Shown here: piece after piece, positions 1,869-32,121 of the stretch
Numbering within the stretch: position 1 is the first letter of the stretch
Layout of the letters: each line of letters starts with the position of its first letter
IMG/VR virus record: IMGVR_UViG_3300021963_006639
Coordinates: 1-35,811 of that record
Strand: one strand, 5' to 3'
DNA from: a virus
DNA: 35,811 nt
The notes under the pieces: generated by a model
Seen by the model: only the letters and a program-made list of their open reading frames with translations
Database searches by the model: none
Told to the model about the DNA's origin: nothing
Translations under genes and position numbers: made by a program

Positions 1869-2462
1869 ATGAGTTTACCAATATTTCCAACCAATCCAAA
1901 AATTGATATTTCAAAATATGCTTGTACAAACGAGTTTTTTAGTGAAGACGAAAGAAGTAATATTAATGAGTTAATTAATTCTTTAAATTTTGAAGACGCG
2001 AGAATTGTTAGTGATGGTGATGGTGGTCACCATAATGAAAAATATAGAAAAAGTAATGTGAAATGGATTTATTTTTCTGAAGAAACCAAATGGATATTTG
2101 TTAAATTAATGAAATTAATACAAGTCACTAATAATGAACATTGGGTTTTTGATTTAGTTATGGCAAGAGAACCAATACAATATACCGAATATACTGATGA
2201 TGGACATTATGATTGGCATATAGACGCAGGTGGTGGATATATGAATCAAAGAAAAGTATCCGTTTCTGTTTTATTATCAGACCCTAACGAGTATGAAGGT
2301 GGTGATTTACAAATTTGGCCAGGTGGTGAAATAAAAACCGCAGAAAGAATTTTAGGAGGTGTAACTGTGTTCCCGAGTTGTTTATTACATAGAGTTACAC
2401 CTGTTACAAAAGGTGTTAGAAAAAGTTTAGTATTTTGGGTAGGGGGAACTCCATATAGATAA
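1869..2462 (+). CDS. 2-oxoglutarate/Fe(II) oxygenase, prolyl-4-hydroxylase-like (copy 1)
   Basis: A 197-aa soluble enzyme of the 2OG-Fe(II) oxygenase class (P4H/PKHD type, 2OG-FeII_Oxy_3-like). The double-stranded beta-helix core is visible: iron ligands H117-x-D119 in 'GHYDWHIDAGGG', distal ligand H174 in 'LLHRVTP', and R184 ten residues later, which would bind 2-oxoglutarate. 'YEGGDLQIW' is the conserved strand seen in prolyl hydroxylases. Known members use O2 and 2-oxoglutarate to hydroxylate prolines or other residues. The next gene is a clear paralog. The leader holds TTTTTATA at 1851-1858, one mismatch from the TATTTATA element found before other genes here. The substrate is unknown; neighbouring fibre proteins are candidates. 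Confidence 0.9.
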   Translation: MSLPIFPTNPKIDISKYACTNEFFSEDERSNINELINSLNFEDARIVSDGDGGHHNEKYRKSNVKWIYFSEETKWIFVKLMKLIQVTNNEHWVFDLVMAREPIQYTEYTDDGHYDWHIDAGGGYMNQRKVSVSVLLSDPNEYEGGDLQIWPGGEIKTAERILGGVTVFPSCLLHRVTPVTKGVRKSLVFWVGGTPYR

Positions 2463-2487
2463 TCTAAACTTTATTATTTACATATCT

Positions 2488-2495
2488 TATTTATA
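2488..2495 (+). promoter_or_regulatory. TATTTATA element before the second oxygenase
   Basis: TATTTATA lies 8 bases before the ATG at 2504. It is one of seven such elements placed just before genes in this window and is a candidate phage promoter element. Confidence 0.45.
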
Positions 2496-2503
2496 TTTTG
2501 AAT

Positions 2504-3091
2504 ATGGATTTAAAACCAATTTTTCCGCCAAAAGAAGGTATTAATCAAACTAACTATTATTGGTTTGAAAAAGGATTTTCAACTCAAGAAGTTGAAACAA
2601 TTGTTAGTGGTTCATTAGAATATGAATTCCAAAAGGCTATTATTGTTGATGAGAACAATACTGATAGATTTAGAAAAAGTAACATAAAATGGTTACCTTA
2701 TGATTCTAAATGGGAATGGGTTATTGATAAAATAATGTCCCAAGTTATTGAAGCAAACAACGCTATTTGGAACTTTGAATTAAAATCAATAATTGATAAC
2801 ATTCAATATACCGAATATGAGGGAAATGGTGGTCATTATGATTGGCATTTAGATATTGGTCCTGGTAGTATTTCACATAGAAAAATATCTGTGGTTATAC
2901 AGTTATCTGAACCAAATGAATACGAGGGTGGGGATTTACAAATTATGACAGGTAGTGAATATGTGACAGTCCCAAGAGGAAAAGGTAATGTTGCAATATT
3001 CCCATCGTTTTTATTACACAGGGTGGTCCCATTAACAAGTGGAAATAGAAAGAGTTTGGTTTTATGGATAGGAGGGGACCATTACAAATAA
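2504..3091 (+). CDS. 2-oxoglutarate/Fe(II) oxygenase, prolyl-4-hydroxylase-like (copy 2)
   Basis: A 195-aa paralog of the preceding gene, alike along its whole length (RKSN(V/I)KW, QYTEY, GGHYDWH, NEYEGGDLQI, FPSxLLHRV, RKSLV). Iron ligands are H115-x-D117 and H172; R182 is the probable 2-oxoglutarate anchor. I chose the ATG at 2504 rather than the TTG two codons upstream, because ATG fits every neighbour and sits at a set distance from a TATTTATA element. Tandem duplication followed by divergence suggests two substrates or two positions in one substrate. It is followed after one base by a third oxygenase-like gene. Confidence 0.9.
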   Translation: MDLKPIFPPKEGINQTNYYWFEKGFSTQEVETIVSGSLEYEFQKAIIVDENNTDRFRKSNIKWLPYDSKWEWVIDKIMSQVIEANNAIWNFELKSIIDNIQYTEYEGNGGHYDWHLDIGPGSISHRKISVVIQLSEPNEYEGGDLQIMTGSEYVTVPRGKGNVAIFPSFLLHRVVPLTSGNRKSLVLWIGGDHYK

Positions 3092-3092: not shown

Positions 3093-3677
3093 ATGATTAT
3101 ATCTTCAATTATAGTGGATGATTTTTATAATGACCCACACGAAACAAGAGAATTTGCATTACAACAAGAATTTAATGTAATTGGTAATTATCCAGGATTT
3201 AGGAGTAAACCATTTTACAATGAAAGTGTTGTTAATTTAATACAAGATATTGTGTTTTTTGCCGGTGGTAAAATAACAAAATGGTCGACAGATGAATATA
3301 ATGGTTCCTTTCAATATGCGACACAAAGAGACAGGAGTTGGATGCATGCTGACCAAACAACAACATGGGCAGGGGTTTGTTATTTAACACCAAACGCACC
3401 AATTACTTCAGGTACGGGTTTATTTAAACATAAAGAAACAGGAATACATACCGCACCAATAAAAAGTGATGGAACATATGATTTTGAAATGTTAGATAGA
3501 TTATATTTAGATTCTCAAGACATGACGAAGTGGGAAATGACTGACATGTTAGGAAATAAGTTTAACAGATTAGTATTATATAGGGCGGATTATTTTCACA
3601 CATCATTAGATTATTTTGGTAGAAATTTAGAAGATGGTAGATTATTTCAAACATTCTTTTTTGATACTGAAAGGTAA
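3093..3677 (+). CDS. DUF6445-like 2OG-Fe(II) oxygenase
   Basis: A 194-aa protein resembling the DUF6445 family, which has a 2OG-Fe(II) oxygenase fold. Visible ligands are H85-A-D87 in 'SWMHADQTT', H169 in 'YRADYFHTSL', and R183 in 'GRLFQTFFF' as the probable 2-oxoglutarate contact. 'WAGVCYLTP...GTGLFKH' is the typical strand pair between the metal ligands. It starts one base after the stop of the second oxygenase, so the three oxygenases form one transcription unit leading into the glycosyltransferases. DUF6445 members are frequent in marine and freshwater phages; no substrate is known to me. Confidence 0.82.
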   Translation: MIISSIIVDDFYNDPHETREFALQQEFNVIGNYPGFRSKPFYNESVVNLIQDIVFFAGGKITKWSTDEYNGSFQYATQRDRSWMHADQTTTWAGVCYLTPNAPITSGTGLFKHKETGIHTAPIKSDGTYDFEMLDRLYLDSQDMTKWEMTDMLGNKFNRLVLYRADYFHTSLDYFGRNLEDGRLFQTFFFDTER

Positions 3678-3682
3678 TTTAT

Positions 3683-4936
3683 ATGAAGACTAAGAAACCA
3701 ATTGCCATCTTATATAATTGGTATAAAAAAGGTGAGTTTACTTTACGTTCTGAGATTTATCATGAAGAACATCTTTATGATGAAGTGATTGTTTATTCAT
3801 TAGATTCTACTGATAATATTTTTAATGATATTTCAAACATTAACCCTGATATTATAGTATCGTTTGAGATTCAATTAGAGTTAAATAATAAAGTATTAAA
3901 TGAAAAATATGTTTATTATCCAAACCTTATTGATGAAATTGTATTGGCAAATGATATTGTAGTTCAAAGTACTTTTAGAAATTGTAAGTATACCCGACCA
4001 AAGTTTTCAATTTTTACACCAACATATAATACGGGAAATAAAATATTAAGAACATATAAAAGTATTAATAACCAAACATTTAATGATTGGGAATGGGTAG
4101 TACTTGATGATTCAACAACGGAAGAAACATGGGAAATACTTTCTGATATTGCTAAAAAAGACTTTAGGGTTAAAGTACATAGAATATTACCAAATAGTGG
4201 TGGTAATGTTGGTTTAGCAAAGAATAGAGTTGCATCATTGTGTGATGGTGAATGGTTAGTTGAGTTAGACCATGATGATGAATTATTAACAAAGTGTTTA
4301 GAATATTTAGATAAAGCATCGTCACAATTTCCCGATGCGGGATTTATGTATAGTGATGTAACCGAACAATATGAAGATGGTAGTCCGAAATTTTACGACC
4401 ATAATTGGTCGGGTAATTGGTATGGTAGAGAAGATAACTTTTTTGATTTTGGATATGCGGGACATTCTTGGGTAACTGAAGATAATAAACAATTATTGGC
4501 TCACCACTATCCTGATATAAATCCATTAACAATAAGATTTAATATTAGTATGCCATCACATGTTAGGGTGTGGAGAAGAGATGTTTATTTAAAAATTGGT
4601 GGACATAACAAAAACACACCTGTTGCCGATGATTTTGAACTCATAGTTAGAACATTTTTAAACACAAAAATGATTCACATTAAGAAAGTTTTATACATCC
4701 AATGGAATAATAGAAATACAACAACAGATAATAATTCAATTGATATTAACCGTAGGTCAAGATTGATTAGAGACTATTATGATAAAGAAATACATCAAAA
4801 AATAATTGATATGGGAAAAATAGATTGGAATTGGGTTGAAGACGAAGGATGTTCACAAAAATTCCAAAATCATATTTTTATTAGAAAATATCATGAAGAA
4901 GAACAAATATTAAATTACATATATGACAACAACTAA
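3683..4936 (+). CDS. GT2-family glycosyltransferase with N-terminal extension
   Basis: A 417-aa protein. Residues 1-105 are an unrecognised alpha/beta region ('KPIAILYNWYKKGEF'). Residues 106-340 are a GT-A fold GT2 domain: 'KFSIFTPTYNT' opening strand, 'WVVLDDST' nucleotide-sugar binding, metal site D196-H-D198 in 'VELDHDDEL', and acceptor-side 'VADDFELIVR' as the catalytic-base motif. No membrane segment, so it should act on a cytoplasmic acceptor. It begins five bases after the oxygenase stop, and its last 14 bases overlap the next glycosyltransferase, implying translational coupling. Donor and acceptor are not deducible from the sequence. Confidence 0.9.
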   Translation: MKTKKPIAILYNWYKKGEFTLRSEIYHEEHLYDEVIVYSLDSTDNIFNDISNINPDIIVSFEIQLELNNKVLNEKYVYYPNLIDEIVLANDIVVQSTFRNCKYTRPKFSIFTPTYNTGNKILRTYKSINNQTFNDWEWVVLDDSTTEETWEILSDIAKKDFRVKVHRILPNSGGNVGLAKNRVASLCDGEWLVELDHDDELLTKCLEYLDKASSQFPDAGFMYSDVTEQYEDGSPKFYDHNWSGNWYGREDNFFDFGYAGHSWVTEDNKQLLAHHYPDINPLTIRFNISMPSHVRVWRRDVYLKIGGHNKNTPVADDFELIVRTFLNTKMIHIKKVLYIQWNNRNTTTDNNSIDINRRSRLIRDYYDKEIHQKIIDMGKIDWNWVEDEGCSQKFQNHIFIRKYHEEEQILNYIYDNN

Positions 4937-7315: not shown

Positions 7316-8018
7316 TGACTTGTCTATAATATTCTAAAAAATGTTCATTCCATAAGTCCCATTTAATATCAATATTATCAACAGAGTAAACTTCATAATT
7401 GGTGAATTGTTTTAAATAAACATCTCTAAATTCTCTAAATTTCGCAACATAATCATGACCCTGAAGTTGTAAGTGCCACTCACCCGTAATTTTTTTAACA
7501 TTATTTTTAATCCAATCAAGGTTTTCCAATGTAAATATATCAAATTCACCACCCTCACAATCAGTTTTTAAAAAATCAATTTTTTCAATACCACATAAGT
7601 CAATGAATTTTTGAAAAGTAATTGATTCCATTTGTTCTTCACCACCAAATAAATGGTCGTTCATCACTATTGAATTTACGTTTGAAATTCCTTTATTTAT
7701 AGGTGTTACAGGATAACCTAAAATATTTTTTACAAGTGTTTTGAATTCACTTTCACTAGGTTCAAAACAAAATACATGTTTTGGTTTTTTATGTAAGATA
7801 GAATATGTAAAAGGACCAACACTGGCACCAACATCCAATACAATGTCATTTTCTTCTACTTCAAAAAATCTTTCATAACATTTATCTATAAAAATTTCTT
7901 GAATCATAGAATCTTTATGGTACTCGCCCATACTTTTATGGGTTCCATCGGGCATTATGTGATAACTTTCAGATGATTTGTCCATCCAACCCCAATCAAA
8001 GGTTTCTAAATTTTTCAT
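7293..8018 (-). CDS. FkbM-family SAM methyltransferase
   Basis: 241 aa. SAM-binding motif I is 'DIVLDVGASVGPF' (about residues 58-70), the acidic ribose-binding residue lies in 'VFCFEPSE', and the FkbM hallmark 'IDFLKTDCEGGEFDIF' spans residues 147-162. FkbM enzymes O-methylate sugars or small molecules, and in phage and bacterial glycan clusters they typically cap sugars. It is the second gene of a two-gene minus-strand unit; its ATG overlaps the stop of the heptosyltransferase gene (ATGA), so it probably acts on the product of that enzyme. Its 3' end runs 23 bases into the plus-strand flavoprotein gene. Confidence 0.88.
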   Translation of the reverse strand: MKNLETFDWGWMDKSSESYHIMPDGTHKSMGEYHKDSMIQEIFIDKCYERFFEVEENDIVLDVGASVGPFTYSILHKKPKHVFCFEPSESEFKTLVKNILGYPVTPINKGISNVNSIVMNDHLFGGEEQMESITFQKFIDLCGIEKIDFLKTDCEGGEFDIFTLENLDWIKNNVKKITGEWHLQLQGHDYVAKFREFRDVYLKQFTNYEVYSVDNIDIKWDLWNEHFLEYYRQVIIHIDNR

Positions 8019-10318
8019 ATTGGTAATAAATTAAATACTGTTAATGGTGAAATTGATTTTTGACAAATGTGTTGTTTGTCAGTACCCTCCCAAATTGGAC
8101 ACCAATTCCAATTTCCAGGGTCAAATTTAAAATTAATGTTAGACCAACAAGAATTACAAGAATGTTCATTTTGTATTCTTGTTATATTTGTGGTAAATTC
8201 ATGATGTTTTGGGGTAAAACCACTTATCATGACCGTGTGTTTTCCTAATGCCCAATTTATCCAAGATAGACCTGAACTTAATCCAATCATAAATTCTGCG
8301 TGGTATAAAATATTCATTGCTTCTTCTAAACTCCTACCATATGCATTTGGAACATTTTTGATGTTATATTTTTTACTTGTTAGAAGTATTGGTGTATACC
8401 CATTTTCTTTTAACAATTTTGATAATAACACCCAACTATCATAAGTCCATTCTTTACAACCAGCTGTTGACTCAGGTGCTAATATAACATAATTACCCAT
8501 GTAAGGTTTATTTTTAGGTGTAAAATTTATGCCTAAATTTAATTCTTTAAACTCTAATCCTAAAATATCGGATGCGGTTTTTTGTAATTCTTGGGTATTA
8601 GGGTAGTTTGGATAACAATCAAATTTATCCCATTTATTATTATCTGAACGCATCCAACCAACCCTATATACGACATCACAATTTGTTAATTCACCTGGTT
8701 TAATAAATTCAATATCCTTATAATTTTCATGACCCTCAAACCAAGAATTATGAAAAGTACTAAATATAACTTTACAATTATGTTTTTTTGAAAATTCAAC
8801 AACATAAGGTGCCCATGCAATTGTATCACCAATTGATTTAGATTCCATTGAAATTAAAACTCGTTTATTTGTTAAATCAAACTCATCAATAATTTCACCA
8901 TCAACTCTAATTTTCCATTTTGTGTAGTATTTTCTACCACATGATGTCCACATATTATTTGAAATTTTTGTACCATATACGATATTGTCAGATTCATCTA
9001 AAAACTCAACTGAATATTGTTTATAAACATCACCAACTATTTCAACTTTAGGTCCTTCAAAATAAGATACTTTAATTTTATTTGGTATTTTATTTTCATT
9101 AAATTCAGGTGTATTTATTTTATTATAAAAATCAGTAATTGTATCATAACCAATTTTACCAATTTGTTCCCAACTAAAATTATTTCTTAAGTCAATTGAT
9201 TCTTTAAAAGATTTTTCTTTACATAAATCATAATTTTCATAAACATATCTCATAACTTTGGATAGGTGATTAAAATCAGGTTCATAATAATTTCCTGGTA
9301 ATTCACTCATAACGTATCTACCGTAGTCATTAAGATTTGCGGCTTTTTCACCAACAATATTTACAGGAAAACCTTTTCCTTCGGCAAATTCAAGTTGAGC
9401 ACAACAATTAGAGTATATTGAAGGGGTACCACAAGCCATTGCTTCAATTAATGGTAAATTCCAACCTTCCGACCTGGCACACGATACAAAAACATGACCT
9501 GTTTTTAAATATTTAACATAATCTTCACGAGAAGGAAAATGAATTATCTTAATTCTTGGGTCAATAAAACCATAAGCGTTTAATCGTTCCTCAGTTGTTT
9601 TGTATCCATCCATTTGTTCGCCCCACATATTATCAATTGATACAACTAAATCAACTGGTTCATCGGCAGAAAATGTTTTTAAGAAGGTCTCAATTATTTC
9701 TTTTGTTGATTTGCGATAATCCCAACGACCCATCAATAAAAACTTAAATCTACCATCAGTGTATTCATCAAGTAATTCTACTTTTTCAGGATAAAAAGTG
9801 TCAACATCAACACCTTCAGGAACAACTTTAATTTTATCGGAGTCATATCCTTGGGCAACTGTACATTCTTTTTGCCATTTTGAGGGTACCCACAATTCAT
9901 CAAACTCTTTTAATTTATTAAAAAAAGTTTCAGGTTGTAATGTTGATTCCCAAACATTATAAGCAATTTTTGGTCCCAAATAATTTTCATAAAATAAATG
10001 ATGATTTGTTTCATTTAAAACTATGTTAAAATCGGGAAAAAAATCTTTTTTTTCGGATGGATAGATTGTAAAATCTTCCATTACACCATCACCAACCCAT
10101 AATCTTTGTTTATATAAAATTGATTTATCGGTATCATTCAGATAAGGTTCATTATCATGTGGTGTTAAACTATTACCTGACCAAGAATCTCCAACTGTAA
10201 AATTTCGTACTTTAACTTGAGCGTGTTTAGATATCTCTCTAAAAAAATCCCTTGTGTGATTGTTATATCCTGTGTTCCCAACGTAAGAACCATGAACATA
10301 AATTTTTGGTTTTATCAT
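8015..10318 (-). CDS. Fused GT4 glycosyltransferase and autotransporter O-heptosyltransferase-like enzyme
   Basis: 767 aa with two catalytic modules. Residues 1-400 are a GT4 GT-B enzyme: 'VVPEGVDVDTFYP', 'FLLMGRWDYRKS', and the EX7E motif E284-E292 in 'SEGWNLPLIEAMACG'. Residues 412-767 match the strand-loop-strand autotransporter O-heptosyltransferase group (TibC/BAHT-like, GT9-related): 'KVSYFEGPKVEIVGD' lead-in, 'SKSIGDTIAWAPYVVEF', 'LAPESTAGCKEWT', 'GLSSGLSWINWALGK', and a metal finger of C721, C724, C740 and C752 within 'HSCNSCWSN' and 'NWNWCPIWEG'. Known members transfer ADP-heptose to serine in adhesins. An HldD-like ADP-heptose epimerase lies at 16434. Few GT4-BAHT fusions are known to me, so substrate and order of action are inferred. 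Confidence 0.88.
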   Translation of the reverse strand: MIKPKIYVHGSYVGNTGYNNHTRDFFREISKHAQVKVRNFTVGDSWSGNSLTPHDNEPYLNDTDKSILYKQRLWVGDGVMEDFTIYPSEKKDFFPDFNIVLNETNHHLFYENYLGPKIAYNVWESTLQPETFFNKLKEFDELWVPSKWQKECTVAQGYDSDKIKVVPEGVDVDTFYPEKVELLDEYTDGRFKFLLMGRWDYRKSTKEIIETFLKTFSADEPVDLVVSIDNMWGEQMDGYKTTEERLNAYGFIDPRIKIIHFPSREDYVKYLKTGHVFVSCARSEGWNLPLIEAMACGTPSIYSNCCAQLEFAEGKGFPVNIVGEKAANLNDYGRYVMSELPGNYYEPDFNHLSKVMRYVYENYDLCKEKSFKESIDLRNNFSWEQIGKIGYDTITDFYNKINTPEFNENKIPNKIKVSYFEGPKVEIVGDVYKQYSVEFLDESDNIVYGTKISNNMWTSCGRKYYTKWKIRVDGEIIDEFDLTNKRVLISMESKSIGDTIAWAPYVVEFSKKHNCKVIFSTFHNSWFEGHENYKDIEFIKPGELTNCDVVYRVGWMRSDNNKWDKFDCYPNYPNTQELQKTASDILGLEFKELNLGINFTPKNKPYMGNYVILAPESTAGCKEWTYDSWVLLSKLLKENGYTPILLTSKKYNIKNVPNAYGRSLEEAMNILYHAEFMIGLSSGLSWINWALGKHTVMISGFTPKHHEFTTNITRIQNEHSCNSCWSNINFKFDPGNWNWCPIWEGTDKQHICQKSISPLTVFNLLPI

Positions 10319-10356
10319 ATTGATAATATAAGATAAATGACTAATATTTCAATATT

Positions 10357-19838: not shown

Positions 19839-19841
19839 ATT

Positions 19842-20111: not shown

Positions 20112-20113
20112 GA

Positions 20114-20281
20114 TTACTTCTTTTTGTTAATCTGATAAAAGGTTTTCATCAATTTTAAACTGTCTTTATAATTCTTTTCAAGACGGTCCAATTCTTTTTC
20201 ATCAACAACAGATTCCAGTGCTTGATTATAAGCCTCCTCAGATTCCTTGATTAATTTTTCTATTGTTTTAAGTAATTTCAT
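20114..20281 (-). CDS. Small minus-strand coiled-coil protein, 55 aa
   Basis: A short minus-strand gene in the only gap between the LamG cluster and the second glycan block. ATG at 20281-20279, TAA at 20114. The sequence starts MKLLKTIEKLIKESEEAYNQ, continues with 'DEKELDRLEKNYKDSLKLMK' and ends in lysines: one long charged amphipathic helix or coiled coil. TATTTATA read on the minus strand ends four bases before its ATG, the same geometry as for plus-strand genes, which supports its being real. The function is unknown. Confidence 0.65.
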   Translation of the reverse strand: MKLLKTIEKLIKESEEAYNQALESVVDEKELDRLEKNYKDSLKLMKTFYQINKKK

Positions 20282-20285
20282 TAAC

Positions 20286-20293
20286 TATAAATA
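20286..20293 (-). promoter_or_regulatory. TATTTATA element for the minus-strand small gene
   Basis: Read on the minus strand this is TATTTATA, four bases before the ATG at 20281. It is the only minus-strand member of the set and shows that the element points with the gene. On the plus strand the same bases read TATAAATA, the T4 late-promoter consensus, so orientation needs care. Confidence 0.5.
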
Positions 20294-20381
20294 TTTCCAT
20301 ATAAATATAAAAGACAAATATTTCTTTATATTCACTTCATTATACAAAATCTTATATTCATGTATAAACGGAATTATTATA

Positions 20382-21647
20382 ATGAAACCAAAAAAAAACT
20401 CAAAAATTTTTGTACAGATTGCGTCATATCGTGACCCACAATTGGTTCCAACAATTAAGAACATGTTGGAGAATGCTAAAAACCCTAAAAACTTAGTTAT
20501 TGGTGTTGCAAGACAATTCAACCCTGATGATAAATTTGATGATTTATCTGAATATGAAAATGATAATAGATTCAGAATTTTAAATATTCCATATCAAGAA
20601 GCCGAAGGTGTTTGTTGGGCAAGACACTTGGTTCAACAATTATATAAAGATGAGGCATACACACTTCAAATTGATTCACATATGAGGTTTGCACCAAATT
20701 GGGATGAAGAGATGATTAATATGGTTAAACAACTTCAAAAGAAAGGACACAAGAAACCATTATTAACAGGATATGTGTCATCATTTGACCCTGATAACGA
20801 CCCAGCAGGCAGAGTACAAGAGCCTTGGAGAATGGCTTTTGATAGATTTATTCCTGAAGGGGCAGTATTCTTCTTACCTGAAACAATTCCAAATTGGAGA
20901 GAAATGACCGAACCAATACCTGCAAGATTTTACTCAGCACACTATTGTTTCACGTTAGGACAATTCTCAAAAGAAGTCCAACATAACCCACACTATTATT
21001 TTCATGGTGAAGAGATTTCAATTTCAGCAAGAGCGTATACCTGTGGTTACGACTTGTTCCATCCACACAAAGTATTGATTTGGCACGAATATACTCGTAA
21101 GGGTAGAACCAAACAATGGGATGATGATAAAGAATGGGTTAGAAGAAATAACCAAGCTCATTTATTAAACCGAAAATTATTTGGTATGGACGGAGAAGTT
21201 CAAGAAGGACATGACGGACCTTATGGATTTGGAACCGTTAGAACATTAAGAGATTATGAAAAATATGCTGGTCTTATATTTGCAAAAAGGGCGGTACAAC
21301 AATATACTTTAGATAAACATTATCCACCAAATCCACAAGAATTTGAAAGTGAAGAAAAATGGTTGGAAAGTTTTGCTAGTATATTTAAACATTGTATTGA
21401 TGTTGGATTTTCATCAGTACCTGAAAAAGATTATGATTTTTGGGTTGTTGCCTTTCATAACGAACAAGATGAAACAATTTATAGAAAAGATGCCGATAAG
21501 GCTGAAATTACTCGTATGATGAATGACCCTGATGGATACTGTAAAGTATGGAGAGAATTCCAAACTGCTCACAAACCAAAATATTGGGTTGTTTGGCCTC
21601 ACTCAGAATCTAAAGGATGGTGTGAAAGGATAACTGGTAATTTATAA
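20382..21647 (+). CDS. GT60-type GlcNAc-transferase (Skp1 hydroxyproline GlcNAc-transferase family)
   Basis: 421 aa. The sequence follows the GlcNAc family (PF11397; Dictyostelium Gnt1-like) closely: 'IFVQIASYRDPQLVPTIKNML' at the start, 'EGVCWARHLVQQLYKDEAYT', metal motif D98-S-H100 in 'LQIDSHMRFAPNWDEEM', then 'FHGEEISISARAYTCGYDLFHP' and 'WHEYTRKGR'. The characterised eukaryotic member adds GlcNAc to 4-hydroxyproline of Skp1 in the cytoplasm. No signal or membrane segment here. I chose ATG 20382: the frame can be extended to 20247, but that extension overlaps the minus-strand gene and reads as low-complexity Ile/Phe/Tyr. It opens the second glycan block and overlaps the next gene (TAATG). 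Confidence 0.9.
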   Translation: MKPKKNSKIFVQIASYRDPQLVPTIKNMLENAKNPKNLVIGVARQFNPDDKFDDLSEYENDNRFRILNIPYQEAEGVCWARHLVQQLYKDEAYTLQIDSHMRFAPNWDEEMINMVKQLQKKGHKKPLLTGYVSSFDPDNDPAGRVQEPWRMAFDRFIPEGAVFFLPETIPNWREMTEPIPARFYSAHYCFTLGQFSKEVQHNPHYYFHGEEISISARAYTCGYDLFHPHKVLIWHEYTRKGRTKQWDDDKEWVRRNNQAHLLNRKLFGMDGEVQEGHDGPYGFGTVRTLRDYEKYAGLIFAKRAVQQYTLDKHYPPNPQEFESEEKWLESFASIFKHCIDVGFSSVPEKDYDFWVVAFHNEQDETIYRKDADKAEITRMMNDPDGYCKVWREFQTAHKPKYWVVWPHSESKGWCERITGNL

Positions 21648-23335: not shown

Positions 23336-24127
23336 ATGATAACTTTAAAAGTAGAAACAGATAATTTCACAATTAACACATTACCTAATGATTGGAGTGG
23401 TGTTAGTATCCATAGTAGTAAATCATGGGAACCCCACATCACCCAAATATTAAAACGAAATTTTAAATCGGACTCAGTATTTGTTGATATTGGTAGTAAC
23501 TATGGATGGCACTCAATTAAAAGTTCACCATTTTGTAGTATTGTTTATAGTTTTGAACCTCAAAAATATATCTATGAAGTTCAAAAAATGAGTATTGATG
23601 AAAATAACATTTCTAACATTCACCTATATAATTGTGGTATTGGTGATAAAAATGAAAATAAAGAAATGTCACCTATCGATTATAATCATCCAAGTATTCA
23701 CATGGGTGATTTAAGTGTTGGTGTTGGTGGTGAAACTATTGAAGTAAAAACATTAGACTCACTTCAAATACCAAAAGTTGATTTTATTAAAATTGATGTT
23801 CAAGGGTATGAAAAATATGTATTAGAAGGTGCTGTTAATACAATTGAAACTTCTAAACCAACAATTATCATTGAAATGGAAGACCACCAGCTTAGAAGAT
23901 TTAATTACGGTGTGGTTGAATTGTTTGAACAATTAAGAAATCTTGATTATTACATTTATTTTTTAGATTATCATTATCCATCTGACCATCTTTGTGTTCA
24001 TAAAGATAAATTAAATGAATTTATTGATAAAAATTATCAATATATAAAACCATTGACTGAGAGTAACAATTTGAATCGTAATCTTGAAAATGGTGTAACT
24101 GAAAAAATTGTTTATGAAGAAAATTAA
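23336..24127 (+). CDS. FkbM-family SAM methyltransferase (second glycan block)
   Basis: 263 aa from the ATG at 23336, preceded by AATAATAAT and no Shine-Dalgarno sequence. Upstream in-frame starts at 23300 (TTG) and 23315 (ATG) lie inside the previous gene. SAM motif I 'VFVDIGSNYGWHSIK', 'VYSFEPQKYIYEV' with the ribose-binding Glu, and the FkbM signature 'VDFIKIDVQGYEKYVLEGA' are all present, then 'PTIIIEMEDHQLRRF'. This is the most canonical of the FkbM genes here. Probable sugar O-methyltransferase. It overlaps the GT10 gene by 14 bases. Confidence 0.9.
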   Translation: MITLKVETDNFTINTLPNDWSGVSIHSSKSWEPHITQILKRNFKSDSVFVDIGSNYGWHSIKSSPFCSIVYSFEPQKYIYEVQKMSIDENNISNIHLYNCGIGDKNENKEMSPIDYNHPSIHMGDLSVGVGGETIEVKTLDSLQIPKVDFIKIDVQGYEKYVLEGAVNTIETSKPTIIIEMEDHQLRRFNYGVVELFEQLRNLDYYIYFLDYHYPSDHLCVHKDKLNEFIDKNYQYIKPLTESNNLNRNLENGVTEKIVYEEN

Positions 24128-24974
24128 AGTATTAGGTAATTGGGACACTTCTGAAAATATTACTGAACGACTTTTAAAACAATTTAAAACACCTGAAATT
24201 GATTTAACCAATATTCAATTTGTTTATGATGACACATATGATATAATAGTATTTTTAAATCATATTTGTTCAGATATCAAAGAAGGTAAAAAATCATACG
24301 TATTTCCGCATGAACCAAGTTGGAATGGTTCTCACCAAAAACATTTTAATGATGGTACAATTGTTTTTGGATTTAAAAATGATTTATATATCGGTAATTG
24401 TATTGAAACATTAGCACATACTTTTTATGGTGGAAGAGGGCCGTGGATGGACCCACTATCGTTTTGGAACTACGAAAATCTAATCTCAACAAATTTTATT
24501 AAAACTAAAAACATTTCATCATCTGTAACTAAAACAGAATTGGATTATGGTGGAACATGTTTATATCCACAAAGAACTAAAATTGCCTCAATGATTGAAA
24601 ATTTAAAATTTGTTGATGTGTTTAATGGTGGTAATAGTAGTCCAAAAAGACATGACGCTTTAGTTGACTATAAATTTAATATATCAATAGAAAATGAATA
24701 TCAAGATAATTGGGTAAGTGAAAAATTTTATGACTGTATTTTAACAGATACAATACCAATTTATTTTGGATGTAAAAATATCAAAAACATTTATCCTGAA
24801 GATGGATATATTTTGATTGAAGATATTAATAATGTTGACCAAATAAATAAACTATTAGATTACATTGAAAAAAATGCTGATGAAATCTATCAACAAAAAA
24901 TTAACGGGTTAAAAAAAATCAAAGAAAAATACTTTAAAGAGTATAATTTATTGAAAAAAATAGTAGAATTATAA
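24114..24974 (+). CDS. GT10-like fucosyltransferase
   Basis: 286 aa. The C-terminal half carries the alpha-1,3-fucosyltransferase (GT10) donor-binding signature: 'YKFNISIENEYQDNWVSEKF' (residues 186-205, with E193-N194 and E203-K204) followed by 'DTIPIYFGCKNIKNIYPEDGYI'. The N-terminal half has 'DIIVFLNHIC' and 'SYVFPHEPSWNG', also usual for this family. Start ATG 24114 overlaps the FkbM stop; a TTG two codons earlier is less likely. GDP-fucose or a related GDP-sugar is the expected donor. No GDP-fucose synthesis genes are seen in the window, so the host must supply it. Confidence 0.88.
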   Translation: MKKIKVLGNWDTSENITERLLKQFKTPEIDLTNIQFVYDDTYDIIVFLNHICSDIKEGKKSYVFPHEPSWNGSHQKHFNDGTIVFGFKNDLYIGNCIETLAHTFYGGRGPWMDPLSFWNYENLISTNFIKTKNISSSVTKTELDYGGTCLYPQRTKIASMIENLKFVDVFNGGNSSPKRHDALVDYKFNISIENEYQDNWVSEKFYDCILTDTIPIYFGCKNIKNIYPEDGYILIEDINNVDQINKLLDYIEKNADEIYQQKINGLKKIKEKYFKEYNLLKKIVEL

Positions 24975-25607: not shown

Positions 25608-27278
25608 ATGTCAATAACTTTAGTTACAGGACTTTGGAACATTAAGAGAGACCAGTTAAATCAAGGGTGGTCAAGGTCGTTTGACCACTACCTTCAAAAA
25701 TTAGAAGAATTATTGAAGGTTGAAACTAATCTTATTATTTTTGGTGAAGAAGAAATACGAGAGTTTGTTGAGAGTAGAAGAAATGGTAATAATACTCAGT
25801 TCATCGCTAGAGATACTGAATGGTTTAAAAATACTGTTCCATACGATAAAATACAAGAAATCAGAAATAATCCTGATTGGTATAATCAATCAGGATGGTT
25901 AAAGGAGTCCACTCAAGGTTCTTTAGAAATGTATAACCCATTGGTTATGTCTAAAGTATTTTTGTTAAATGACGCCAAAATAATGGATAAATTTAACTCA
26001 ACACATCTTTTTTGGATTGATGCTGGACTAACTAACACTGTTCATCTTGGTTATTTTACTCACGATAAAATACAAGATAAACTACCTAAATTATTTAACA
26101 AATTTGGTTTTATTGCATTTCCTTATGACACAAATTCTGAAATTCATGGATTTAGTTATCCTAAAATTAACGAATATGCTAAAAATGATGTTAAGTTAGT
26201 TTGTAGAGGTGGATTGTTTGGTGGTAGAAAAGATGCCATTGGTGATATAAATGGTTTGTATTACGATTTACTACACACAACCATTAATGATGGTTATATG
26301 GGTACCGAAGAATCTTTATTTAGTATTTTACTCTATAGACACCCTGATTTAATTGAATATGCTGAAATAGATTATAACGGTCTTATTAGTAAGTTTTGTG
26401 AGGATTTAAAAAATGATACTGTTGATGTTAAAACTAAATCACCCGTTAACAATAATTTAAAGTTAGAATTAACTAACACCGCATTATACGTTATTACATT
26501 TAATAGTCCAAAACAATTTGAGACTTTAATAACATCCATGATTGATTATGATACGGACTTTTTGGATAAACCTAAAAAGTTTTTATTGGATAACTCATCA
26601 GATTTGTCAACTACCGAGAAATACTTGGAACTTTGTAAAGAATATGGTTTTGAACATATTAAAAAAGATAATTTAGGTATCTGTGGGGGTAGACAATTTA
26701 TTGCCGAACATGCCGACGAAAACAATTTTGATTTTTATTTCTTCTTTGAGGATGATATGTTCTTTTATCCAAAGAAAGGTGAAGTTTGTAAAAACGGATT
26801 CAATAGAACTGTAAATAATTTGTATATTAATTCATTAGAGATTACTAAAAAAGAAGACATTGATTTCTTAAAGATGAATTACACTGAGTTTTATGGTGAT
26901 AACGGAACTCAATGGTCATGGTATAACGTACCTCAACATGTTAGAGAAGAATTTTGGCCAAACAAACCAAATTTACCTGTGATGGGATTAGACCCAAATG
27001 CACCAAGAACTAATTTTAAAAAAATACTTTCGTATAAAAATATACCGTATGCTTTGGGTGATGTTTATTATTGTAATTGGCCACAAGTGGTTACAAAATA
27101 TGGTAATAAAAAAATGTTTTTAGAAACAAAATGGGCAAGACCCTTTGAACAAACTTGGATGAGTTTTATTTATCAGGAAACTAAAAAAGGTAACATAAAC
27201 CCAGGATTGTTGTTATTAACACCAACCGAACATGACCGATTTGATTTTTACGACGGTTCTTTAAGAAAAGAATCATAA
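25608..27278 (+). CDS. HtrL/YibB-like transferase fused to GT2-like domain
   Basis: 556 aa with two transferase-like halves. Residues 1-280 match the HtrL/YibB (WlaTC-like) family: 'ITLVTGLWNIKRDQLNQGWSRSFDHYLQKLEELL', 'NLIIFGEEEIREFV', 'PLVMSKVFLLNDA', 'HLFWIDAGLTNTV', 'CRGGLFGGRKDAI', 'GTEESLFSILLYRHPDL'. Residues 290-540 are a GT-A/GT2-like domain: 'ALYVITFNSPKQFETLI', 'FLLDNSSD', 'NLGICGGRQF', and metal motif 'FYFFFEDDMFF' at about residue 380. HtrL/YibB proteins occur in LPS and capsule clusters. The fusion should deliver two sugars. It ends the second glycan block. Confidence 0.83.
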   Translation: MSITLVTGLWNIKRDQLNQGWSRSFDHYLQKLEELLKVETNLIIFGEEEIREFVESRRNGNNTQFIARDTEWFKNTVPYDKIQEIRNNPDWYNQSGWLKESTQGSLEMYNPLVMSKVFLLNDAKIMDKFNSTHLFWIDAGLTNTVHLGYFTHDKIQDKLPKLFNKFGFIAFPYDTNSEIHGFSYPKINEYAKNDVKLVCRGGLFGGRKDAIGDINGLYYDLLHTTINDGYMGTEESLFSILLYRHPDLIEYAEIDYNGLISKFCEDLKNDTVDVKTKSPVNNNLKLELTNTALYVITFNSPKQFETLITSMIDYDTDFLDKPKKFLLDNSSDLSTTEKYLELCKEYGFEHIKKDNLGICGGRQFIAEHADENNFDFYFFFEDDMFFYPKKGEVCKNGFNRTVNNLYINSLEITKKEDIDFLKMNYTEFYGDNGTQWSWYNVPQHVREEFWPNKPNLPVMGLDPNAPRTNFKKILSYKNIPYALGDVYYCNWPQVVTKYGNKKMFLETKWARPFEQTWMSFIYQETKKGNINPGLLLLTPTEHDRFDFYDGSLRKES

Positions 27279-27309: not shown

Positions 27310-30102
27310 ATGGCACTAGTTAATAGGTATTTTTATCAATGTTGTAACCCTTTGGGGTCTGGTGCTCCAATTTATAGAACATTTGAAATTGATACCGCAG
27401 GTACTTGGGTAGCAAACGTAAGTACTGTAATTTATACTGGTGATGGCAGTTGTTATTACTATACCACCACTAGTTCTTTAGACCCTTCAGAACAATCATT
27501 TTCAAGTGAACAATATAGCACTTGTCCAGTATGTGATGCCGCAAATCCAAATGGATGCTATTATACTTTTTCAGCTTGTTGTGATGGTAGTACCTTTAGT
27601 ATTAGAAGAGGTGATTTTGCTTTTGAAAATACATATGGACCATTAACCGTTGGTGAAATATGGAGATTTTCTGTGGCTACAGCCACAACGAGCCCTCAAA
27701 CATTTGCTTTCGTTGGATGTGCATCCTATATTACGGGAGTGACTGGCTCAACAATTTACGTTCAGACAGGTCAAACAACAGTAAGTGTTACTACACCTGG
27801 TTCTTGGTCCAATTGTAATGATTGTTTAACAGCTTATCCTTGTTGTGTTTCAGGTACTGTTGATAATATACTTTGTTCATATACTGATTGTTGTGGTACT
27901 TTTGTAAGTGGCGGTAGTATTAATGATGTTGTATGTTTTAATCCTAATTTACCACATAGGGGGTTAGTTACATCATATACCGACGCTTGTTCACAAGTTT
28001 GTCCAACACCTACACCTACGCCTACAAATACCGTAACACCAACTAATACCGTAACACCAACAGTGACTCCGACAAAAACAGTCACACCAACAGTAACACC
28101 AACAGTAACACCAACCAATACGGTTACACCGACCAATACTGTTACTCCTACCAATACTGTTACTCCAACCAATACTGTTACGCCAACTATAACACCAACT
28201 AATACGGTTACACCAACTTTAACACCTTCCAATACTCCAACTCCTTCAGTAACAGCTGGTCCTACTGATTATCAATTCAGGGCTTGTTGTTCACCGAATG
28301 AAATTTTTGTTGTTGATGATTATGTTGGAACTATAAATGTTGGTGAGGTATATTATATCACAGGAAGTGGTTTTACAGGTTGTGCCGAAGTAATACCAAT
28401 GACAGGTTTTGGTGAAAAATATGTTATCGTTGGTTTAACAGGTCCATATGATAATTGTTCGGTTTGTACTGACGACTATAGTTGTTGTGGACCGGGAAGT
28501 AACTGTATTGAGTATCAAATTAATAATACTGAGGAGTTTCCTGCAACTGTAACATATGTAGATTGTAATGGTGATAATCAGAATTTAATTGTACCTGAAC
28601 TTAGTGAATTAAATATATGCGCATGTGAATATAGTGTGATTGTACCTGATGGTGTGTTCGTTACTGTAATTGGTGACTGTAATCAAATAACACCAACACC
28701 TGAACCAACACCAACACAAACACCAACGCCAAGTCCAACACCGGTGTATGGACTATGTAATACTGAATTTTGTTTATATACAAATTTCTCAGGTACATCA
28801 ATGTATGATGGAAATTATACATCAGGTGGAACTTACAATGGAAGACCATATTGGACAGGCTCCACATCAGGTACTGTTTTTTACGATGGAACTAAATGGT
28901 GTTTGGGAGCAACATTAGGTGGTACTTGTATTTTAGCGGGTAAATCACCTTGTTTTTCAAATTGCCCTGATTTGGATAATTTATTTTGGTCAGAAGGACC
29001 TTGTCCAACACCTACGCCAACACCAACAACAAATGTATGTTTGAATGTAAATTTCAACGCATTTTTTGATTGTGATTACGAACCTGAACCAACTGTTACA
29101 TGTTTAACTCCAACACCAACAATTAGTGTAACACCAAGCCCAAATCCTTGTGCATTTGTTGATGCTGACATTACTGTAGAAGATACAACTCCAACTCCAA
29201 CACCTACGCCAACTGTAACACCAACACCAAGTTTACAAAGAAATGTCAACATATCAGGTTCAACAACCTATACAATTAATGACACTGAATTTGAATGTGT
29301 ATTTGTTCGTAAGATTCAAGATTGTTCTGATAATGAAATTTATTATGTGAATCAGTCAATGAGAACTTCAGGTGAAACAATTATAAATACAGGTCAAACA
29401 TTTAGTGCTGAAGTATCAGGAACAACTAAATGTTATACTTATTTGGATGTTGTATATGACCAAAGTCCAACATTAACACTTAATACAATTATTGCGTCGT
29501 ATGTGAGTTGTGTAAGTTGTCAAAATAGTTTAACACCAACACCTACTCCAACTAAGACTGTAACACCAACGGTAACACCAACTAATACGGTAACACCAAC
29601 TAATACGGTAACACCAACGGTAACACCAACAAATAGTGTAACACCAACGGTAACACCAACGGTAACTAAAACCGCAACACCTACAAGAACACCAAACTTA
29701 TCACCGTCAAAGACACCTACACAAACTAAGACACCTACACAAACACCAACACCAACTGTCACAGTAACTCCATCGGTTACTATGACTAAGACACCAACTA
29801 GAACACCTACATCTACTCCAACCAACACACCTACCTTAACTAAAACTCCAACTCCTACACCAACTAAGACACCTACACAAACACCAAGTAACACACCTAA
29901 ACCCGCTAAATATATAGTAGAAAGTTGTACATCAGGTATTCAAGTTGCAGTTTCCAATAATGGTTTACTGAATGTAAGTATTGGTGATTTTGTAAAATTA
30001 AGTGGAACAGGATATTCAGGATGTTGGGAAGTTATCGGAGGTGTATTGGGTGGAACCGCTACATCAATAATCTCAGTACATACTAGTTGTGCTTGTACAT
30101 AA
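27310..30102 (+). CDS. Modular cysteine-rich, Thr-Pro-rich fibre/adhesin-like protein
   Basis: 930 aa built of small cysteine-rich modules joined by Thr-Pro linkers. Type A modules ('CC...', 'GE(I/V)[15 protein letters not shown]', 'GPYDNCSVC') occur near residues 6-75, 80-175, 320-395, 650-740 and 866-930. A 'CIEYQINN...TYVDCNG...CACEY' module lies near 397-458 and a '[11 protein letters not shown]...GRPYWTG' module near 481-565. Mucin- or extensin-like linkers of [10 protein letters not shown] lie near 234-317, 460-478, 567-575, 603-640 and 740-865. No signal peptide, so it should be a virion part, not a secreted protein. I infer a fibre or capsid decoration. The Pro/Thr linkers are prime candidate targets for the oxygenases and transferases upstream. 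Confidence 0.82.
28003..28250 (+). repeat. Thr-Pro-coding minisatellite 1
   Basis: Repeats of 6, 12 and 18 bases (acaccaaca-, accaataccgtt- type) encode [20 protein letters not shown]. Synonymous third-base differences (acg, act, aca) are spread through the copies, so the protein pattern is held by selection rather than only by recent copying. Confidence 0.85.
29527..29900 (+). repeat. Thr-Pro-coding minisatellite 2
   Basis: About 370 bases of the same kind (acaccaacggta-, acacctacacaa- units) encode [11 protein letters not shown] and [10 protein letters not shown] segments. The first half is more uniform at the DNA level than the second and than minisatellite 1. Confidence 0.85.
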
Positions 30103-30112
30103 TTAAATAAAA

Positions 30113-30328
30113 ATGGGAAGACAAATAACAATAAATTCAATCAACGCAGCTCAAGGGTATAATGTTTATATCTGTGATACCACATTGGTTACTTGTGTGT
30201 ATTTGGCAACGATTAACGACTCTGATTTACCATATAGCATTGAGGTTCCATCACCGTATGATACGATGACTGCCTTTAGTGTTAAAATTGTTGATACCAA
30301 TAACTGTGAAATAATTAAAACATTCTAA
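30113..30328 (+). CDS. Small fibre-cluster protein, 71 aa
   Basis: A beta-rich 71-residue protein ('QITINSINAAQGYNVYICD', 'YSIEVPSPYDTMTAFSVKIVDTNNCEI') with three cysteines. The 'VPSPYD' string also occurs in the next, larger gene, hinting at a shared module. It starts ten bases after the previous stop in an A-rich leader and overlaps the next ATG (TAATG). Probably a small virion or fibre-tip part; no family recognised. Confidence 0.65.
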   Translation: MGRQITINSINAAQGYNVYICDTTLVTCVYLATINDSDLPYSIEVPSPYDTMTAFSVKIVDTNNCEIIKTF

Positions 30329-32121
30329 TGTCAACTATAATATATAACGACTGTGGTGTAACAACAATTTTACCTTTGGGTGTAAATTGTTATTCGGTAA
30401 ATGCCTCAACACCTGATAGTAATGATGGTAGAATTTATTTAACAATTACGGGCGGTTCATCACCGTATTCAATTACGTGGAGCAATGGTTTAAAAGACCA
30501 AAATATTAAGAATTTAATACCTGGTGAATATACCGCAACTACGGTAGATTACTATGGTGATTATACAGCAACTACGGTATGTACTGTTGAATCAACACAA
30601 TTTTATGTTGATTTATTTGCCGATTGTGCCAATGAGTACAACTTATATCTTACAGGACTAACAACAACTTTTGTTGAGGGTGGAATATATAAATTTACAA
30701 CATCTGATTCTACTTTAGATTTGGGTTGTTTTACTTATTCAGGTAAGACATTGAATGGTAATAATTTCTTATCAACAGCTGTTTTGACTGAGGGACCATT
30801 TGATACTTGTGATGAGTGTGACCCACCACCAGTACCACTACCTGATTATCCTACTGAACTTTGTTTATATACTAACAGTACACCATTCGAAGCCTATCCG
30901 TTTACGTTTTATAATTTTGTTAATGACAGACCGGCCTATACTGGAACATCATCTTCAAGTTCCGCATTTACAATTTCTTGGGTTACAGCGACAACATTTA
31001 CCAATTGGTTGGTATTAGGTAGAGTAGGTAATACTTTAAAAAATCCTTCAGATACCTTTGACCCAACAGGTGGATGGATTGAAGAGGGAACATTAAATAC
31101 ATGGACGGCAATATCAGGAGCATGTCCATCATCACCTGTATTAAGTTTTGATTTAACAACGACTAATGAATCTTGTGAGGGTTTATGTAATGGAAGTGTA
31201 ACAATTAAAGCCAATGGAGGTTCAGGTGGATACCAATATAAATTACTTAACAGTACTTACCAACCATCACCAACGTTTAATAACTTATGTCCACAAAACA
31301 ATACTCAATTCTTTGTTAAGGATAGTAGTGGAACTGAAGTACAAGGGACATTTACAATTTTACCCGGAACCAAAAAGGTTACATATACATTATCATTGGA
31401 GGCCAAATCATATTTTACAAAACAAGATTATGGCAATCAAACAATTAAAAATTTAGATTATCTTATTAAAGTTAGTCCTGAATTACCTGACGGTGTTACA
31501 ATTAACATTCCTTTATATGTTTCAGTTAATGATTCAATGTCACAACCGGGAAGTGCAACAACAGTATACACACCTGTATTATATTCAGGTACATCAACTG
31601 TATCACCAACATCAAATTCATTAACATCAACTCAGGTAATTGTACCTAGTCCATACGATTATAATTATCCGTATCCAACCATATTAAAAACTCATAGTGT
31701 TCAATATCCTACAATTACATTAAAGAAAGGTTTAACAGTATCGGGTACTGTTACATCAACAATAACTAAAATAAGTAATGGCACATCAACATGTACATGT
31801 AGTTCATATTTTATTGAAAATCCTGGACTTAACACTTTAACATATAACTGGGTTAACTGTACAGGTGGTACTGAAAACAATTATAATTTATTTGGTGGAC
31901 AATCAGTTAGTGTTTGTGCTTGTAGTGTCTCAAAACCATCAGGTAGTCAATTAATAATTACAAGTGGTGCTGGCTCATTAAATTGTGGAGCTGCGATTGT
32001 GGATGCAAATGAAAAAATTAATGTTGGATTTAACGGACCATCAATTAGTGATAACTGTACATTATTTAAAGTTTTAACCCCACAAACTGAACAATTAATA
32101 AACACATTGTATCAACAATAA
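30328..32121 (+). CDS. Modular fibre/adhesin-like protein with SprB-type repeats
   Basis: 597 aa. Residues about 17-90 ('NASTPDSNDGRIYLTITGGSSPYSITWSNGLKDQNIKNLIPGEYT' region) and 275-345 ('NESCEGLCNGSVTIKANGGSGGYQYKLL') follow the SprB repeat pattern known from Bacteroidota gliding adhesins. Between them lie a type A cysteine module (about 90-165) and a 'LCLYTNSTPFEAY...RPAYTG' module (about 170-270), and near 490-560 a 'CTCSSYFIEN...NCTGG...CACSV' module; all three types also occur in the 930-aa protein. No signal peptide. It probably forms a fibre or decoration together with the upstream proteins. The name of the virion part cannot be given. Confidence 0.8.
   Translation: MSTIIYNDCGVTTILPLGVNCYSVNASTPDSNDGRIYLTITGGSSPYSITWSNGLKDQNIKNLIPGEYTATTVDYYGDYTATTVCTVESTQFYVDLFADCANEYNLYLTGLTTTFVEGGIYKFTTSDSTLDLGCFTYSGKTLNGNNFLSTAVLTEGPFDTCDECDPPPVPLPDYPTELCLYTNSTPFEAYPFTFYNFVNDRPAYTGTSSSSSAFTISWVTATTFTNWLVLGRVGNTLKNPSDTFDPTGGWIEEGTLNTWTAISGACPSSPVLSFDLTTTNESCEGLCNGSVTIKANGGSGGYQYKLLNSTYQPSPTFNNLCPQNNTQFFVKDSSGTEVQGTFTILPGTKKVTYTLSLEAKSYFTKQDYGNQTIKNLDYLIKVSPELPDGVTINIPLYVSVNDSMSQPGSATTVYTPVLYSGTSTVSPTSNSLTSTQVIVPSPYDYNYPYPTILKTHSVQYPTITLKKGLTVSGTVTSTITKISNGTSTCTCSSYFIENPGLNTLTYNWVNCTGGTENNYNLFGGQSVSVCACSVSKPSGSQLIITSGAGSLNCGAAIVDANEKINVGFNGPSISDNCTLFKVLTPQTEQLINTLYQQ

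Follow-up and report, generated by a model that had tools for sequence, protein, structure and literature searches.

Two possible fibre-modification modules in a freshwater phage: a GT60 enzyme with a Thr-Pro-rich protein and prolyl-hydroxylase-type oxygenases with a collagen-like stalk

Do the prolyl-hydroxylase-type oxygenases and the GT60 (glycosyltransferase family 60) enzyme encoded by one phage belong to a single pathway acting on a fibre protein? The question is raised by the IMG/VR virus record IMGVR_UViG_3300021963_006639, a 35.8 kb stretch from a freshwater virus of bacteria, analysed here over its full length (the window; 36 genes were translated, and they are named below by their first coordinate). 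A first-pass annotation proposed a copy of the Dictyostelium Skp1 pathway directed at a fibre: the oxygenases would hydroxylate proline in Thr-Pro linkers, the GT60 enzyme would add N-acetylglucosamine (GlcNAc) to the hydroxyproline, and a GT10 enzyme would add fucose. The inventory behind this proposal was correct, since the two oxygenases (1869 and 2504), the probable third one (3093), the GT60 and GT10 genes, and the long Thr-Pro tracts of the 27310 protein are all present (Table 1). The interpretation was partly supported, as the oxygenases are linked to a fibre gene and GT60 to Thr-Pro-rich proteins, whereas the coupling of the oxygenases to GT60 was not supported. With a probability only slightly above one half, the locus is best read as two separate fibre-modification modules, a GT60-centred module A and an oxygenase-centred module B. 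The gene content, conserved catalytic residues, and linkages given below were observed directly and the folds were predicted; the substrates, sugars, linkage residues, and virion location are drawn from linkage, family, and fold.

The relatives of the two enzymes were surveyed separately. The best 80 of 292 GT60 relatives in viral contigs formed 52 non-redundant clusters, and 75 oxygenase loci formed 53. No oxygenase relative was found by tblastn or hidden Markov model (HMM) search within 10 kb of GT60 in the 52 GT60 loci, and no GT60 gene within 10 kb of the oxygenase in the 53 oxygenase loci, so the co-occurrence expected from the first-pass annotation is largely missing from related phages. 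In the window, the GT60 gene is ~17 kb away from the oxygenases, and 17 genes are predicted in the interval from 3677 to 20382. When whole records were searched, the oxygenase profile PF13640 was matched in 5 of 50 GT60 records (the two shortest, L012 and L053, were omitted), namely a near-copy of this phage (G001, ~17 kb from GT60), a sibling (G002, ~24 kb), G035 (~37 kb), G007 (~209 kb), and G042, considered further below. GT60 was present in 5 of 50 oxygenase records, which were hand-picked, mostly longer, and not strictly non-redundant, and in all five it lies at least 84 kb from the oxygenase. Absence at the level of records is weak evidence because many of them are fragments, but the 10-kb result is firm. 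Beyond near-copies of this phage, the window's full gene combination did not recur; one almost identical contig, IMGVR_UViG_3300021962_008205 (44.5 kb), shares several window genes at 100% identity. The 32158 protein was tried as a neutral lineage marker and dropped, since its only 10 loci are all near relatives, which makes it useless as a control.

Since the oxygenase and GT60 do not travel together, it is unlikely that Thr-Pro linkers are first hydroxylated on proline and then given GlcNAc, and a Skp1-like joint action of oxygenase, GT60, and GT10 was rejected as the principal reading on the co-occurrence counts.

The GT60 gene and the Thr-Pro-rich protein

The candidate acceptor of module A is the 27310 protein, of whose 930 amino acids (aa) 195 are Thr and 97 are Pro. 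They are concentrated in five tracts that together span 310 aa and include 119 of the Thr and 70 of the Pro residues, and its best 60-aa window reaches 72% Thr plus Pro (T+P), the next highest value among the 36 window proteins being 33%. A strict Thr-Pro-rich stretch (60 aa with at least 60% T+P) is located within 10 kb in 37 of the 52 GT60 loci, the nearest one being upstream of GT60 in 28 of these 37, at a median distance of 2.05 kb. None of the 75 oxygenase loci (0/53 non-redundant) has such a stretch within 10 kb, even at a weaker setting; the fibre linked to the oxygenases is a collagen-like stalk and not the Thr-Pro protein. A Thr-Pro DNA pattern was present in 40 of the 50 GT60 records. 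Among the oxygenase records, at least five matches were found in 5/5 with GT60 versus 2/45 without it (p = 1e-5), and any match in 5/5 versus 11/45 (p = 0.002), contrasts that are inflated because the GT60-bearing oxygenase records are long. GT60 lies within ~2 kb of a Thr-Pro tract in four of these five long records.

An HtrL_YibB-type protein accompanies GT60 in 50 of the 52 loci. In the reciprocal survey (80 loci, of which 78 new ones were used and formed 51 clusters), GT60 was found in 48 HtrL loci by tblastn and in 47 by HMM, and a Thr-Pro stretch in none of the three HtrL loci lacking GT60. The window's HtrL protein (25608) consists of an HtrL_YibB N-terminal half and a C-terminal half that resembles phage HMC-glucosyltransferase only weakly (E 0.0007); its similarity to TAGT (E 0.0049) is under the cut-off. 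DNA or nucleotide modification by this protein was set aside in view of such weak similarity. Because it is nearly constant beside GT60, the two-part protein may add the second sugar.

In the GT60 enzyme itself, D98, S99, and H100 are invariant in 28/28 sequences; this DxD-like DSH is presumably a metal motif, the role that it has in GT27. A structure model derived from 28 sequences has a predicted local distance difference test (pLDDT) score of 78.8. Comparison of the model with solved structures (VIA) returned polypeptide N-acetylgalactosaminyltransferases in all of the first 28 rows (Z 19.1 to 16.8), followed by RmlT (16.8) and then other GT-A enzymes; fold alone shows no function, and by sequence no solved structure was matched at E up to 1. 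PMC8724618 describes the GT60 polypeptide alpha-GlcNAc-transferases as relatives of GT27 that start mucin-type O-glycans in protists, and the Skp1 enzyme is treated there and in PMC6939170 as one relative of this group. The window enzyme resembles the protist GT60 and the GT27 enzymes in its PF11397 match, its predicted fold, and the Thr/Pro-rich low-complexity nature of its candidate acceptors, and differs from them in being phage-encoded and cytoplasmic, with an HtrL_YibB partner.

Given the Thr and Pro content of the tracts, direct glycosylation of Thr is the simpler reading, and linkage, family, and fold make it the best one for this enzyme. In module A, Thr (or Ser) residues of the 27310 protein would receive N-acetylhexosamine straight from GT60 in a mucin-type manner, hydroxyproline being unnecessary, and the two-part HtrL_YibB protein, the GT10 enzyme, and other variable enzymes would extend or decorate the glycan. 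Dictyostelium PsA, with its PTVT repeats, was considered as a model acceptor, but a literature search aimed at it yielded no usable support.

Aside from metagenomic contigs, GT60 was detected by tblastn in three cultured-phage records, XacN1, CM1, and RAS14. An HtrL relative is encoded in XacN1 (40%) and RAS14 (38%), and a shorter Thr-Pro pattern has 51 matches in XacN1 and 22 in RAS14, with 0 for the reversed-pattern control. PF13640 gave zero matches in the whole XacN1 and RAS14 records, other oxygenase families being outside this search, and a 320-kb portion of XacN1 had no match to the HMM of the window-type oxygenases at E up to 1. XacN1, with its ORF334, resembles the window in GT60 (47% identity), the HtrL-type protein, and Thr-Pro-rich open frames (15 in the 320 kb examined), and differs from it in the lack of a PF13640 oxygenase. 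At least two XacN1 glycoproteins are reported in PMC5852040. GT60 relatives were also seen in Bacteroidota and proteobacterial assemblies (L249-L252 and L254), including the isolate Niabella aurantiaca (49%), with an HtrL relative beside GT60 in L249-L252.

The oxygenases and the collagen-like stalk

The fibre gene located just upstream of the oxygenases, with two small genes in between, is absent from the first-pass annotation; it encodes a Gly-X-Y stalk (PF01391, 63.8 bits, cut-off 27.2) and a C-terminal Peptidase_S74 domain (PF13884, 69.1 bits, cut-off 22). A Pro-bearing Gly-X-Y stalk, defined as at least 6 triplets with at least 15% Pro in X, occurs in 19 of the 53 oxygenase loci, upstream and on the same strand in 19/19, at a distance of 0.8 to 9.9 kb. 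An oxygenase tree was built with 52 rows; three loci with alignments shorter than 150 residues were omitted, L086 (a longer copy of the window) was represented by the window's two genes, and 11 rows with less than 5 kb upstream were scored as uninformative for the stalk. The clade that holds the window genes comprises 30 rows and has the stalk in 19 of 21 informative ones (the window counting as two), versus 1 of 18 in the other large clade (p = 6e-8). The stalk label changes 11 times on the tree versus a shuffled mean of 16.1; it is therefore clustered, yet not confined to a single clade.

The collagen-like fibre was used as a query as well, with the best 80 of at least 523 matches taken (79 loci, 69 clusters). 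An oxygenase lies within 10 kb in 10 of these 69 loci versus 0/103 GT60 and HtrL loci (p = 7e-5), the latter two sets being partly overlapping. The ten include the window's own copy, two weak cases (E ~5e-6), and L301, which has no Pro-bearing run; among loci with nearly full flanks, the count is 5 of 26. The oxygenase clade therefore goes with the stalk, and the stalk usually goes without the oxygenase. Because Gly-Ser/Thr-Ser repeats also score as Gly-X-Y runs, a Pro-specific collagen DNA pattern was applied to the GT60 records. It was matched in 3 of 50, that is, in 2/5 with PF13640 versus 1/45 without (p = 0.023); in the third record, G032, the stalk lies where the contig ends.

The two exceptions in the fibre clade, L139 and G002, have Gly-Ser/Thr-Ser stalks. 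The sibling G002 is very close to the window in its GT60 (96% identity) and Thr-Pro protein (86%), and its fibre has the same S74 end and a stalk without Pro. In the 18 kb examined, it has no separate relative of 2504 or 3093. This pattern fits a tie between 2504 and the Pro-bearing stalk, and it indicates that the 1869 type can persist without such a stalk. The 1198 protein, which contains a Pro-rich PPPSPPFPPS segment, has a homologue kept beside the 1869-type oxygenase of G002; most of the Pro-rich segment is lost from this homologue, and the oxygenase is still there.

In the 2504 oxygenase, H115, D117, H172, and R182 (the HxD...H iron triad and the basic residue for 2-oxoglutarate, 2OG) are invariant in 34/34 sequences. 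Its structure model (pLDDT 89.6) is closest by VIA to PHD2 (Z 20.2, root-mean-square deviation 2.8, 180 aligned), an enzyme in whose entries the PDB is rich. Further matches are Trichoplax PHD (Z 20.0), the Pseudomonas putida prolyl 4-hydroxylase (P4H) with EF-Tu (19.5), an algal P4H with a Ser-Pro peptide (18.5), PiuC (17.6), the PBCV-1 collagen prolyl hydroxylase (17.5), and Dictyostelium PHD (16.8). The predicted fold of the oxygenases is thus prolyl-hydroxylase-like, and the target residue may be Pro or another one. The only profile match of the 3093 protein is DUF6445. It is read as a probable 2OG oxygenase because H85, D87, H169, and R183 (HxD, the distal His, and Arg) are invariant in 32/32 relatives, and the PHROG name of its family, "minor coat protein", may be wrong. 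DUF6445 relatives of 3093 occur in 32 of the 53 oxygenase loci. In L128, a member of the second clade, the oxygenase lies near a DUF6445 relative on the opposite strand and a 411-aa gene whose product we take to be glycosyltransferase-like.

Two glycosyltransferase genes of the same block follow the stalk-associated oxygenases. Relatives of the GT2 enzyme (3683) are found in 11/19 Pro-collagen oxygenase loci versus 2/34 other oxygenase loci. The 8015 protein, likewise absent from the first-pass annotation, matches TibC in the PDB at 1.4e-33, and TIGR04414 is above cut-off in 8/8 of its relatives tested. The TibC-type half occurs in 17/28 fibre-clade oxygenase loci versus 0/25 others, and together with a collagen-like fibre in 11/19 oxygenase loci versus 0/59 collagen-query loci without an oxygenase (from the best 80 of at least 523), the two sets being sampled differently. 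As in the TibC/AAH autotransporter heptosyltransferases, TIGR04414 is above cut-off and the four iron-finger Cys and the GD segment align (with TibC, 4rap); the window enzyme differs in being fused to a GT4 domain and in lying beside a phage fibre. PMC4358343 gives the iron-finger residues of TibC as Cys-339, 342, 358, and 370 and states that TibC heptosylated Ser, not Thr. The stalk of this phage is nearly without Ser (0.01 per triplet in L086), the rest of the fibre being a possible Ser source, and the acceptor left is therefore Thr, hydroxyproline, or another part of the fibre. In the 735-kb record of an uncultured phage (L085, L287), ~95 kb separate a window-type oxygenase (48%) from a TibC-type enzyme, and Gly-X-Y repeats of the Ser/Thr kind lie near the TibC-type enzyme.

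In module B, the prolyl-hydroxylase-type oxygenases would have as their substrate the collagen-like stalk of the fibre whose gene precedes theirs, and this fibre would probably also receive sugars from the GT2 and TibC-type enzymes. The combination of a prolyl-hydroxylase-type enzyme with a Gly-X-Y protein is shared with the Bacillus anthracis P4H/BclA pair and the PBCV-1 collagen prolyl hydroxylase; here, the Gly-X-Y protein is a phage tail-fibre stalk with nearly all Pro in X, the oxygenases stand two or three in tandem, and a TibC-type enzyme is nearby. According to PMC8968730, the B. anthracis P4H hydroxylates Pro in synthetic peptides at X as well as at Y. Hydroxylation of Lys in the stalk was ruled out, the counted triplets of the window and L086 containing zero Lys.

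Other genes of the window

Table 1. Main features of the window, numbered from its first nucleotide
Feature	Position	Strand	Basis
Collagen-like (Gly-X-Y) fibre, C-terminal S74 chaperone domain	3..878	+	PF01391, PF13884, PHROG tail fibre families; 5' end cut by window edge
Small protein with Pro-rich segment, between fibre and oxygenases	1198..1830	+	No PHROG match
2OG-Fe(II) oxygenase A, prolyl-hydroxylase type	1869..2462	+	PF13640 55.1 bits (cut-off 27); catalytic residues conserved
2OG-Fe(II) oxygenase B, prolyl-hydroxylase type	2504..3091	+	PF13640 56.3 bits (cut-off 27)
DUF6445 protein, probable third 2OG oxygenase	3093..3677	+	PF20043 48.8 bits (cut-off 24)
GT2 glycosyltransferase, stalk module	3683..4936	+	PF00535 75.2 bits
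GT4 domain plus TibC/Aah-type protein O-heptosyltransferase	8015..10318	-	TIGR04414 217 bits (cut-off 200)
Probable ADP-heptose 6-epimerase (HldD-like), donor-sugar enzyme	16434..17234	+	TIGR02197 203.8 bits, under cut-off 274.6; PF01370 104.1
GT60 polypeptide alpha-GlcNAc-transferase-like enzyme, module A	20382..21647	+	PF11397 239.3 bits (cut-off 21)
GT10 fucosyltransferase-like enzyme, optional extender	24114..24974	+	PF00852 53.1 bits (cut-off 23.9)
Two-part HtrL_YibB/GT-like protein, constant GT60 partner	25608..27278	+	PF09612 65.8 bits
Thr-Pro-rich probable fibre, candidate module A acceptor	27310..30102	+	Composition; virion location inferred
Thr-Pro tract 1 (95 aa)	27985..28269	+	
Thr-Pro tract 5 (132 aa)	29518..29913	+	

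Several further genes surround those discussed above. A stand-alone SET-domain protein (17231-17620; PF00856, 59 bits), possibly a lysine methyltransferase, is encoded inside the sugar-gene block and has relatives in 2/52 GT60 and 5/51 HtrL loci. The 214-aa DegT-type aminotransferase (10357-11001) covers only profile positions 24-98 of 360; this short form is conserved, as G002 retains 91% identity over 214 aa. Tandem Laminin_G_3 proteins (17637-18650 and 18802-19827) lie just upstream of GT60, and Laminin_G_3-like proteins were seen near GT60 in 10/52 and 11/52 loci. A SprB-repeat protein (30328-32121; PF13573, 44 bits) directly follows the Thr-Pro protein. The window also contains NeuD-like, HldD-like, FkbM-type methyltransferase, and other carbohydrate genes.

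Alternative readings and significance

Some of the observations weigh against the two-module reading. As to module A, a strict Thr-Pro stretch is missing from the 10 kb around GT60 in 15 of the 52 loci (four of them have a weaker one), and 10 of the 50 GT60 records are without the Thr-Pro DNA pattern. The nearness of GT60 to a tract in the five long records is modest (combined p = 0.012), and tracts are not beside GT60 in G054 or in RAS14, where they lie elsewhere in the genome, outside the 15 kb around GT60. In G042 a PF13640 gene, divergent and missed by the window-protein searches, is located ~4 kb from GT60, and PF13640 was matched somewhere in 3/3 GT60-bearing bacterial genomes checked. 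As to module B, TibC-type HMM matches also occur in 3/52 GT60 and 4/51 HtrL loci, and the nearest PDB entries of the oxygenase by sequence are PKHD-type hydroxylases (Sbal_3634, 1.1e-8; PiuC, ~4e-6). Pro in the Y position, as in the substrates of animal-type collagen P4H, is almost missing from the stalk: in the window, Pro occupies 32% of X and 2% of Y (41 triplets), and in L086 0% of Y in 130 triplets. In G002 an 1869-type oxygenase (63%) stands beside a Pro-free Gly-Thr-Ser stalk, L139 being alike; 59 of the 69 collagen-query loci (best 80 of at least 523) have no oxygenase within 10 kb; and Microcystis phage Mel-JY01 encodes a TibC-type enzyme with no nearby window-type oxygenase, 2.4 kb from Gly-Ser-Ser/Gly-Thr-Ser repeats.

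The single Skp1-like pathway of the first-pass annotation is very improbable. All the enzymes that it names are present in this one phage, the oxygenase fold matches prolyl hydroxylases including that of Dictyostelium, and GT60 includes the Skp1 enzyme Gnt1, for which hydroxyproline is required according to PMC6939170. Within related phages, however, oxygenase and GT60 are unlinked and each has its own candidate acceptor, no Thr-Pro stretch lies near an oxygenase, and XacN1 and RAS14 combine GT60 with Thr-Pro tracts without PF13640. The fucose step differs too: GT10 is found in just 17 of the 52 GT60 loci, and the Skp1 fucosyltransferase belongs to GT74 (PMC8724618). As regards the Skp1-type GT2/GT74 bifunctional galactosyl-fucosyltransferase, the window gave a GT10 match only, with no search made with GT74's own model. 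The boldest reading left, a hydroxylation-dependent glycosylation of the stalk in which the oxygenases would make hydroxyproline in the Ser-poor stalk and the GT2 and TibC-type enzymes would glycosylate the new hydroxyls, is also unlikely, though less so; if true, it would realize the general idea of the first-pass annotation via other enzymes and on another acceptor.

More weight belongs to the suggestion that the oxygenases act on a host protein or another phage protein, for instance EF-Tu, which the P. putida prolyl hydroxylase modifies, or the 1198 protein, their adjacency to the fibre being lineage history. We consider it doubtful, although of all the alternatives it has the most in its favour: one of the best fold matches is the P. 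putida P4H-EF-Tu complex, collagen is almost absent from the surroundings of the second oxygenase clade (19 rows), G002 retains one oxygenase with a 1198 homologue and a Pro-free stalk, and related oxygenases also occur in cyanophages, where 3 of 4 inspected phage neighbourhoods (S-H38, CRP-810, and S-MS29) have them amid metabolic, DNA, or other genes. Mere history accords poorly with a stalk in 19 of 21 informative clade rows, upstream on the same strand in all 19 cases measured, and with the collagen-query contrast of 10/69 versus 0/103. A further alternative is that the sugar enzymes have glycans of the host surface or envelope as their targets, or produce a free glycan, and leave phage proteins unmodified. 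The NeuD-like, HldD-like, FkbM-type, and other carbohydrate genes recall surface polysaccharide clusters, but the studied GT60 and TIGR04414 members act on polypeptides, and both genes lie beside repetitive structural-type proteins across many phages, so that this alternative is unlikely.

A literature search, covering mainly open literature, returned no paper linking a phage collagen-like tail fibre with a prolyl hydroxylase or oxygenase, which does not establish that none exists. Genes of the prolyl 4-hydroxylase-like kind abound in phage metagenomes, and their use by viruses is called still cryptic in a paper on Baltic viruses (PMC9301287); the tie between an oxygenase clade and the Gly-X-Y stalk offers a concrete candidate substrate. 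The GT60-HtrL-Thr-Pro module, in turn, is a candidate phage system for mucin-type O-glycosylation of proteins, represented in culture by XacN1 and RAS14. Glycosylation of fibres by either module could influence host range, stability, or receptor recognition.

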